Below are positions 23,628-27,197 of a stretch of DNA of 33,683 nucleotides, one piece after another. Each line of letters opens with the position of its first letter. Position 1 is the stretch's first letter. The stretch comes from Thiotrichales bacterium 35-46-9. GTDB lineage: Bacteria; Pseudomonadota; Gammaproteobacteria; Thiomicrospirales; Thiomicrospiraceae. A model generated the notes under the pieces. It did no database searches. It was not told the origin of the DNA and saw only the letters and a program-made list of their open reading frames with translations. A program made the translations under genes and the position numbers. Location: NCBI GenBank assembly GCA_002281095.1, contig NCFI01000007.1:27605-61287 (forward strand), written 5' to 3'.

Positions 23628-24433
23628 GTAGTTTGTGGCAGTCATGGAAAGCAGATGTGGCTTGTGTGTTTGCACGAGATCCGGCCGCGCGTTCCACTTT
23701 GGAAGTCTTGTTAACCTATCCAGGTGTGCATGCGGTATTTTGGTATCGACTCGCGAATCGTTTGTGGCATTGGAACTTTAAGCTATTGGCGCGCTGGTTA
23801 ATGACCATAGCTCGCTGGTTAACTGGCGTGGAAATTCATCCTGCTGCAACCATTGGTCAACGCTTTTTTATTGATCATGGTATGGGTGTGGTGATTGGTG
23901 AAACCGCAGAAATTGGTGATGACGTAACGCTTTATCATGGAGTTACCTTAGGAGGTACCAGTTGGCAGGAAGGTAAGCGTCACCCGACCTTGGGCAATGG
24001 CGTCATTGTCGGCGCTGGTGCTAAGGTGTTGGGTCCAATTCTGGTGGGGGATAACGCACGTATTGGTTCCAATGCTGTGGTGGTTAAACCTGTGGCAGAA
24101 GGTGTTACTGTTGTCGGTATTCCAGGACATGTGGTGAAATCTAAAAAGGTTGATGAAGCTAAGCGTGCACAAGCGCAGAATTTGCTGGGTTTTGATGCTT
24201 ATGGTGTTGGCGCTGATGCACCCGATCCAGTTGAGCGTGCCATTCACGCATTGACAGATCATGTATTGGCCATTGATGCTCAGTTAAAAATGGCGCAGCA
24301 GGAGTTAGTGCGTTTGGGTTCGGTTTTACCTGAAGTGGAATTACCTACTTTGGATGCATGTATGTTGGATGCTTGTGAAACAAAAACGAATGACGTACAG
24401 CATAATGCCGATTTTTCAACCCATAATACCTGA
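23624..24433 (+). CDS. cysE: Serine O-acetyltransferase
   Basis: CysE transfers acetyl from acetyl-CoA to serine, giving O-acetylserine, the first committed step of cysteine synthesis. It has 269 residues. A short helical N-terminal domain (1-65) is followed by a left-handed beta helix of hexapeptide repeats from about 68 to 170: [10 protein letters not shown], the catalytic [32 protein letters not shown] and GIPGHVV. About 95 residues follow, ending in a Cys-containing tail ([10 protein letters not shown]) beyond the usual core. It overlaps trmJ by four bases. Cysteine supply next to iscR/iscA makes metabolic sense. Confidence 0.95.
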
Positions 24434-24471
24434 CTGTTGCGCTAAGGTATTGCAGAATTTTGATCTGGTTG

Positions 24472-24496
24472 ATACCATACTAAGCTAGTCAACTAT
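24472..24496 (+). promoter_or_regulatory. iscR: Candidate IscR type 1 operator upstream of iscR
   Basis: The 25-base stretch matches the E. coli IscR type 1 consensus, as I remember it, at 21 positions. The left half begins ATACC and has ACTA; the right half TAGTCAACTAT (24486-24496) matches in full. It lies 20 bases before the iscR ATG. It overlaps a -35-like TTGATA (24469-24474) with a -10-like TATTCT (24494-24499) 19 bases later. This fits negative autoregulation by holo-IscR. Confidence 0.65.
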
Positions 24497-24516: not shown

Positions 24517-24975
24517 ATGCGTCTTACTTCTAAGGGTCGGTATGCAGTTACTGCTATGCTAGACATTGCTATTCATCAGCCACATGGTGCTGTTTCTTTA
24601 TCGGATATTGCCTCTCGTCAATGTATCTCGCTTTCTTATTTAGAGCAGATTTTTACTCGACTGAGAAAAGCTAAGTTGGTGAAAAGCGTACGCGGTCCTG
24701 GCGGTGGATATCTGATTGGTGCGCCGTTAACGGAAATTAGCGTGCAGAAAATTGTAGAGGCTATGAATGAAGATCTCGATGCTCGCCAATGTCGAGGTTC
24801 GGAGGATTGCCATGAGGGAACGGCTTGTCTTTCTCATGCATTGTGGGATGATTTATCGGCGATGATTGCGGGATTTTTGTCACATATTACCTTGGCTGCT
24901 TTGTTAGAAAAGCGTCATTTGGCAAGTAGTGGATTAAATCAACAAATTAGTGTGGCGCAAATATTGCGTCGTTAA
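24517..24975 (+). CDS. iscR: Fe-S cluster assembly transcriptional regulator IscR
   Basis: IscR is a Rrf2-family regulator carrying a [2Fe-2S] cluster; the holo form represses isc-type promoters. The 152-residue protein opens MRLTSKGRYAVTAMLDIA, has the winged HTH at about 26-66 (LSYLEQIFTRLRKAKLVKSVRGPGGGY) and keeps all cluster ligands: C92, C98, C104 and H107, numbered as in E. coli. GGTGA lies about 10 bases before the ATG. A candidate IscR box lies directly upstream. It follows cysE and precedes iscA, but iscS and iscU are absent from this locus. Confidence 0.96.
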   Translation: MRLTSKGRYAVTAMLDIAIHQPHGAVSLSDIASRQCISLSYLEQIFTRLRKAKLVKSVRGPGGGYLIGAPLTEISVQKIVEAMNEDLDARQCRGSEDCHEGTACLSHALWDDLSAMIAGFLSHITLAALLEKRHLASSGLNQQISVAQILRR

Positions 24976-24999: not shown

Positions 25000-25326
25000 A
25001 TGACAATTAATTTAACGCCCAGTGCGGTAGAACGCGTTCGTACCATGCTGGCCAAACGTGGTCATGGTATTGGTTTGTACTTAGGCACGAAAGTGAGTGG
25101 TTGTACGGGTTTCGCTTACGTTGTTGATTATGCTGATGAGGTCAAAGACTCTGATTTGGTCTTTGAGTTTGATGAAATTAAAGTCGTTGTGCCACAAAAA
25201 AGTATGGAACAATTGAATGGCATGACCTTGGATTATGCAAAAAACGGACTGTTAAATGAAGGCTTCGAGTTTATTAACCCGAACGTGAAAGATATGTGTG
25301 GATGTGGCGAAAGTTTTAGTGTTTAG
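25000..25326 (+). CDS. iscA: Iron-sulfur cluster assembly protein IscA
   Basis: IscA is an A-type carrier that delivers Fe-S clusters to target proteins. From ATG 25000 it has 108 residues (107 in E. coli), with the three conserved cysteines C35 (SGCTGFAY), C100 and C102 (CGCGESF). The NPNVKDMCGCGESF ending is specific for IscA rather than ErpA. The start is set by AAGAGGAG at 24985-24992, 7 bases upstream; an in-frame GTG at 24976 lacks a site. It lies 24 bases after iscR and is probably cotranscribed. A converging hairpin follows. Confidence 0.95.
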   Translation: MTINLTPSAVERVRTMLAKRGHGIGLYLGTKVSGCTGFAYVVDYADEVKDSDLVFEFDEIKVVVPQKSMEQLNGMTLDYAKNGLLNEGFEFINPNVKDMCGCGESFSV

Positions 25327-26161: not shown

Positions 26162-26755
26162 TTAACCGTTAAAGCGCTCAGCTACGTTGTTCCAGTTAAC
26201 AACAGACCAGAAACCTTTTAGGTAATCTGCACGGCGATTACGGTAGTCAACATAGTAAGCATGTTCCCAAACATCAACGCCTAATAAGGCATTTTTACCC
26301 ATTTGCAATGGATTGCCTGCATTTGAGCTGCTCACTAATTCTAGGCTACCATCGGCATTTTGAGCTAACCATGCCCAACCTGAACCGAAGGTTGCCAAGC
26401 CTGTGGCTTCGAATTTAGCTTTGAAATCATCAAAAGAACCAAAGGTTTTTGTGATCGCATCCATCAGTTTTCCTGTCGGTGCAACACCACCGCCAGCACT
26501 TGGCGGCGCCATCATCGTCCAGAATTGATTATGATTCCAATGTTGCCCAGCATTATTGAAAATACCACCAGCAGGCGCCGTTTTGACGATATCTTCCAGG
26601 CTTTTGCCTTCAAATTCAGTGCCGACCACCAAACGATTAAGATTGTCGACATAAGCTTGATGATGCTTGGTGTGATGAAGTGTCATGGTTTCTTCGCCAA
26701 TATAAGGCGCCAACGCGTTATAAGCATAAGGTAAAGCGGGCAAGGTGTGCGACAT
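26162..26755 (-). CDS. sodB: Superoxide dismutase [Fe]
   Basis: SodB converts superoxide to oxygen and hydrogen peroxide in the cytoplasm. From ATG 26755 it has 197 residues (193 in E. coli), opening MSHTLPALPYAYNAL. The metal ligands are H27 (TLHHTKHH), H75 (GQHWNHNQFW), D161 and H165 (DVWEHAYY). Q71 in the GQHWNH stretch, with no later Gln in LVSSSNAGNPL, marks the iron rather than manganese type. The start is supported by GGAG about 10 bases upstream; a TTG at 26770 would add five residues without support. An IscR-like box lies 35 bases before the ATG. No signal peptide. Confidence 0.96.
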   Translation of the reverse strand: MSHTLPALPYAYNALAPYIGEETMTLHHTKHHQAYVDNLNRLVVGTEFEGKSLEDIVKTAPAGGIFNNAGQHWNHNQFWTMMAPPSAGGGVAPTGKLMDAITKTFGSFDDFKAKFEATGLATFGSGWAWLAQNADGSLELVSSSNAGNPLQMGKNALLGVDVWEHAYYVDYRNRRADYLKGFWSVVNWNNVAERFNG

Positions 26756-26789
26756 GATCAAAAGCTCCAATTGAATCGTAGAGAAAATA

Positions 26790-26814
26790 ATACCTGACTA
26801 TTTTACTCAGGATT
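26790..26814 (-). promoter_or_regulatory. sodB: Candidate IscR type 1 operator upstream of sodB
   Basis: Read on the plus strand the 25 bases begin ATACCTGACTATTTTA and continue CTCAGGATT. They match the E. coli IscR type 1 consensus, as I recall it, at 22 positions. A minus-strand -10-like TATTAT (plus 26792-26787) overlaps its downstream edge; the -35 is poor. The site also covers the ycgL stop codon. Confidence 0.6.
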
Positions 26815-27136
26815 AGATGTTAGCGCTAGTCTTAGAAACAGCTGCTTGTTGTTCAGCGACCCAGCGATCTTCTATCGCTTGTAAAGCAGTGGGATCGCTC
26901 GGTGGTAATTGTAGATAATAGCCATCATTACATAATGATTCATAGACTTTTTGACCATCCGCTCTAGCCAGTTTGCGATCGGCGGTCATGTCAAAGTCAA
27001 TGACGTGATGTGACTGAGGAAATTGTTGTTGTAGTGCTTCAGGTAGCTTTTCCCATCCTAGTTTTTGTGAAAGATATAAATAGGTGGCTTCTTTTTTGAA
27101 ATGACGATAGGTGCTGGTTGGAATAGCGACAGACAT
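26813..27136 (-). CDS. YcgL domain protein
   Basis: This is a 107-residue protein with the YcgL fold. An N-terminal EATYLYLSQKLGWEKLP corresponds to the TYLYV region of E. coli YcgL, and the highly conserved GYYLQLPP lies near residues 77-84. The E. coli protein is 108 residues, so this is full length from ATG 27136; a longer reading from 27181 adds an unrelated hydrophobic leader. A GGAA lies about 10 bases before the ATG. Function is unknown to me; the family is small, cytoplasmic and best known in gammaproteobacteria. It is upstream of sodB on the same strand, with 57 bases between. Confidence 0.78.
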   Translation of the reverse strand: MSVAIPTSTYRHFKKEATYLYLSQKLGWEKLPEALQQQFPQSHHVIDFDMTADRKLARADGQKVYESLCNDGYYLQLPPSDPTALQAIEDRWVAEQQAAVSKTSANI

Positions 27137-27197
27137 GATTGAAAAGATTCCTACAGTTAAATTTAAGTAAATAAGATCCATAACAGGGTGATGACGG

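Follow-up and report, generated by a model that had tools for sequence, protein, structure and literature searches.

A putative IscR type 1 operator before sodB in a SUF-only gammaproteobacterial order and its predicted link to iron-sulfur status

Organization of the sodB and iscR loci

The window, by which the whole analyzed stretch of 33,683 nucleotides is meant, carries a gene for an iron-type superoxide dismutase (sodB) preceded by a gene with a YcgL domain, together with a gene for an Rrf2-family regulator of the IscR type that is followed by iscA. The features of both loci are collected in Table 1. The sodB product is best matched by the superoxide dismutase [Fe] model at 263 bits, which is under the naming cut-off of 348. 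The order of ycgL and sodB is preserved across the order to which the source organism belongs, as judged from the open reading frames upstream of sodB in relatives.

Table 1. Coordinates of genes and putative regulatory elements at the sodB and iscR loci of the window
Feature	Position	Strand	Basis
Distal type 1 operator of iscR-iscA, putative	24426-24450	.	21/25; 16.5 bits
Proximal type 1 operator of iscR-iscA, putative	24472-24496	.	21/25; 14.0 bits
iscR, Rrf2-family [2Fe-2S] regulator	24517-24975	+	Pfam Rrf2; best NCBIfam model IscR
iscA, A-type Fe-S carrier, behind iscR	25000-25326	+	Pfam Fe-S_biosyn; best NCBIfam model IscA
sodB, iron-type superoxide dismutase	26162-26755	-	Pfam Sod_Fe_N and Sod_Fe_C; best NCBIfam model superoxide dismutase [Fe]
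Alternative candidate -10 TATTAT, operator edge	26787-26792	-	sequence reading only
IscR type 1 operator of sodB, putative	26790-26814	.	25 bp near-palindrome; consensus fit, matrix rank, conservation
Candidate -10 TAAAAT, within operator	26800-26805	-	sequence reading only
ycgL-domain gene, upstream of sodB	26813-27181	-	Pfam YcgL, 3.5e-21

No gap is needed to align the regulator with E. coli IscR, and the cluster ligands C92, C98, C104, and H107 are retained, as is the discriminator residue E43; the E. coli reference chains 4hf1/4hf0 have alanine at the three cysteines. Its score with the IscR model TIGR02010 (188.3 bits) falls below the naming cut-off of 207.55, and the next specific non-IscR model, CymR, reaches 82.9 bits. 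The iscR-iscA site that the earlier note had placed 2.3 kb from the sodB site is real, and it is the proximal member of a tandem pair, the distal member of which overlaps the stop region of cysE and was absent from that note.

A type 1 match upstream of sodB

The putative sodB operator reads ATACCTGACTATTTTACTCAGGATT on the plus strand and fits the E. coli IscR type 1 consensus used for scoring, ATASYYGACTRWWWYAGTCRRSTAT (PMC3899308), at 22 of 25 positions, exactly as had been claimed from the first reading. It shares two bases with the stop codon of the upstream ycgL gene and lies 34 bp from the sodB ATG (26753-26755, minus strand). Within the window it is the only site with at most three mismatches to the consensus, and matches of this quality were absent from 100 dinucleotide shuffles of the window.

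In the source genome (1.83 Mb, 144 contigs, 97.7% complete), a strict scan with the same limit returned four sites, located before sufB, folE2, an acetolactate synthase gene, and sodB, with none for the reversed pattern used as a control. The sufB site is a perfect type 1 match 23 bp 5' of the gene, and those of folE2 and the acetolactate synthase large subunit gene lie approximately 17 bp and 70 bp upstream, respectively. A relaxed pattern gave 15 forward matches versus five in the reversed control; six of the 15 were the strict four and both iscR sites, the remainder lying mostly within coding sequence.

A position weight matrix was also built from 53 sufB and iscR sites, all taken from genera other than the window's own. 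Among the 25-mers of the window it ranks the sodB site first (24.9 bits), above the distal and proximal iscR sites, with the next 25-mer at 6.5 bits, so that the site not only ranks near iscR, as had been suggested as a check, but exceeds it. Since the matrix was trained without any sodB promoter, it constitutes an independent model that singles out the window's sodB site.

Conservation within the order and the probable regulator

The order was sampled by 63 genomes, representing one family and seven genera, in which SodB was found in 58, SufB in 62, and a close IscR in nearly all; more distant Rrf2 proteins occur in a minority, and a scaffold of the IscU/NifU type, identified by the IscU/NifU N-terminal domain, was found in none of the 63. 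At least 8 bits with the matrix were reached within 220 bp upstream of sodB at 46 of 58 loci, against 1.0 expected, and a fit of at least 19/25 within 200 bp was obtained at 39 of 58, against 0.42 expected; roughly eight of the 58 loci have no recognizable type 1 site within 220 bp. Upstream of sufB the motif was present at each of the 30 loci inspected, and upstream of iscR at nearly all of 30. The IscR motif before the suf genes of the order is of type 1 and not of type 2.

In the window's genus, the site is present in all three genomes for which the sodB upstream region is available, namely the source genome and two congeners, whose operators are identical at 23-24 of 25 bases while the 3' flank has suffered deletions and base changes. 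A palindrome arisen by chance and without function might still be entertained, given the three mismatches and the ill-defined promoter of the window, yet the absence of matches in both the window shuffles and the reversed genome control, the retention of the operator beside a decaying flank, and above all the order-wide excess, which by itself contradicts such an origin, make this a very remote prospect.

The palindrome could alternatively be bound by another regulator, for which the source genome offers an NsrR-like Rrf2 protein (encoded on C116) and two Fur-family proteins. Against this, the motif is common to the sufB and iscR promoters, and in genus g4 (G017 and G019) the iscR and sodB operators within the same genome both carry the variant form ATTTCCGA..TCGGAAAT, so that the site co-varies with the iscR operator; moreover, a close IscR is nearly universal in the sample, unlike the distant Rrf2 proteins. 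Two other sites over sodB were tried and rejected: a type 2 IscR site (AWARCCCYTSnGTTTGMnGKKKTKWA) fits at best 18/26 positions (p = 0.33), and a Fur box fits 13/19 (p = 0.10) in the window, with no order-wide enrichment over sodB for either motif. Binding by NsrR, Fur, or a further factor is accordingly improbable.

The sodB operator therefore resembles type 1 sites in its consensus fit beyond chance, in sharing its motif with iscR and Fe-S promoters, and in its conservation. It is very probably a real IscR binding site, as predicted from sequence, because the same motif stands before sodB across the order and in unrelated groups. The superoxide dismutase gene thus appears to be tied to the iron-sulfur status of the cell. 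This proposal of the earlier note is supported: the two observations that could have undone it were loss of the site in close relatives and many equally good matches in random genes; instead, the site is kept in both congeners for which sodB could be compared and in the greater part of the order, and neither the matrix scan of the window nor the pattern scan of the genome gave such a crowd of matches.

Promoter geometry and the sign of regulation

The operator was initially described as overlapping the sodB -10 element. This is plausible, with TAAAAT inside the operator and TATTAT at its edge, although a sigma-70 scan around the window's sodB yielded nothing convincing and no good -35 for either candidate. 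The sufB operator of the source genome likewise has TAAAAT at its centre. The spacing between operator and ATG, which is 27 bp in the congener G003, leaves too little room, as does the 34 bp of the window, for a -35, a -10, and a leader, so that the promoter should coincide with the operator or lie farther upstream, where it would be blocked by bound IscR. Comparably short distances, 19-35 bp across the window, Methylophaga, and Sulfuritalea, are found outside the order as well.

A different arrangement is seen in most other genera of the order, where the operator ends on the base that opens a good -35 (TTTACA or TTGATA, followed after 16 bp by TACAAT or TAAAAT) and is centred at about -48; in G006, G007, and G013 the operator is about 15 bp farther upstream, near -63. 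This fixed upstream position makes activation possible in those genera, where the geometry is less plainly repressive. It also lends some weight to the view that the site is a true type 1 operator at which holo-IscR activates sodB, the iron enzyme being produced under an ample supply of iron and clusters according to an iron-sparing logic, and the sodB gene of Yersinia is reported to be expressed under iron-replete conditions (PMC8262890). Raising an iron enzyme during iron shortage, as repression would entail, runs against iron sparing. The operators of the window, Methylophaga, and Sulfuritalea, however, leave no room for a downstream promoter, and operators of the same type stand before sufB and iscR in the same genomes, where the E. 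coli precedent is repression: type 1 sites are bound by IscR only when it carries its [2Fe-2S] cluster, and are repressed by it (PMC3899308, PMC12594620). Activation is consequently considered unlikely, and repression is favored at the window's sodB because no promoter fits between operator and ATG.

The SodB sequences of the window's genus (L087-L089) stand apart from those of the other genera in the order (L090-L116) despite the kept ycgL-sodB order, and an AU test rejects a single clade for all SodB of the order (p = 0.011). Tentatively, and with long branches in the tree, the sodB of the window's genus may have replaced an older gene at the same locus, the operator being either kept or rebuilt.

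Proposed mechanism

The preferred reading, to which a probability of roughly 0.8 is assigned, is that the site is a type 1 operator through which holo-IscR represses sodB along with suf and iscR, and that cluster damage or shortage relieves this repression. As type 1 sites are bound only by the holo form and repress, sodB would be down when clusters are plentiful, with [2Fe-2S]-IscR on the operator blocking transcription as at sufB and iscR-iscA, and would be released upon cluster loss. Superoxide, other oxidants, or a shortage of iron or clusters would oxidize or strip the IscR cluster and take the protein off type 1 sites, whereupon suf and iscA, for Fe-S assembly, and sodB would rise together. 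In E. coli lacking both cytoplasmic superoxide dismutases, the iscR promoter is up about threefold (PMC12594620), which indicates that superoxide can act via the IscR sensor. The site, its statistics and conservation, the motif common to suf and iscR, and the cluster ligands of IscR are computed here; from them and from the cited precedents we infer binding by IscR, its cluster requirement, repression over activation, and the inducing signals.

Other candidate members of the regulon

Type 1 sites also occur before folE2, which encodes the GTP cyclohydrolase FolE2, in several genera (L005 at G000:C106:13395-13419, and G001, G007, G011, G012, G013, and G062), the gene often adjoining one for a CobW/COG0523-like GTPase. 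The acetolactate synthase large subunit gene has its site at about 70 bp upstream in two congeners (L004 at G000:C87:8027-8051, and G001:C205:8033-8057). Further sites precede grxD, for the monothiol glutaredoxin Grx4, in three genomes (L206 in G003, L207 in G006, and L128 in G016), and the thiol peroxidase gene tpx in one (L143 in G058).

Recurrence beyond the order

Outside the order, 80 named sodB loci were compared, and 14 of them fit at 19/25 or better, against 0.36 expected; they belong to Chromobacteriaceae and relatives, Methylophaga, Sulfuritalea, Thiodiazotropha, and others. With the exception of one fragmentary genome, the outside genomes with a sodB site possess an IscR orthologue whose own gene carries a type 1 site. 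Most of them also encode an IscU-like protein, so that the wiring is recurrent and not restricted to SUF-only organisms, and a link between type 1 control of sodB and loss of the ISC system was rejected on the same ground. On the SodB tree the operator label requires many changes, some of which are artificial products of the 19/25 cut-off. The Escherichia sodB upstream regions in the comparison set contain no type 1 site (16/25). One of these genomes, Escherichia sp. MOD1-EC7003 (G076, L025), oddly has neither IscU nor a close IscR match, perhaps owing to missing or masked sequence.

Comparison with known systems

The iscR operators of E. coli and P. aeruginosa share with the present system the 25-bp type 1 consensus, the cluster ligands of the regulator, and E43, so that cluster dependence is expected; the targets differ, being sodB and suf here rather than an isc operon, in an order in whose 63 genomes no IscU-type scaffold was found. 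The sodB gene of E. coli is under Fur/RyhB control. Its product belongs to the same enzyme family, whereas no Fur-box enrichment is seen over sodB here. The earlier contention that direct IscR control would be a wiring different from that of E. coli is fair, but it has precedents: in Yersinia pseudotuberculosis, IscR directly binds and represses the sodB promoter, through a type II site, as apo-IscR, under iron starvation (PMC8262890), and in Caulobacter a putative IscR target sequence has been described upstream of sodB (PMC11475020). As in Yersinia, sodB is a predicted direct IscR target in the window, but the site is of type 1, with no type 2 site, so that the predicted regulatory sign differs and the opposite response is expected. 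Caulobacter, likewise with an IscR target sequence upstream of sodB, differs in that its motifs are unlike the E. coli type 1 consensus and in being an alphaproteobacterium with an isc-suf operon.

In the largely open-access literature that was searched, no description was found of a type 1 IscR site at sodB, of a link between IscR and folE2, or of a Thiomicrospira IscR regulon; an earlier prediction in a database such as RegPrecise may exist. What appears to be new is the predicted type 1, cluster-dependent form of control at sodB, along with its membership of the core regulon in an order that lacks IscU and its occurrence in other lineages.

Significance

More broadly, it seems somewhat more probable than its contrary that in this SUF-only order IscR serves as a sensor of superoxide damage and that sodB belongs with suf and iscR to a core type 1, holo-repressed regulon, joined in several genomes by grxD or folE2, a wiring that recurs in separate proteobacterial lineages. 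The prediction is simple and can be tested in culturable groups such as Methylophaga and relatives of Chromobacterium. If it is true, the sign of control would be opposite to both the repression by apo-IscR in Yersinia and the iron-sparing control in E. coli, and a superoxide dismutase that protects clusters would be induced by cluster loss via the Fe-S regulator itself, forming a direct feedback loop.
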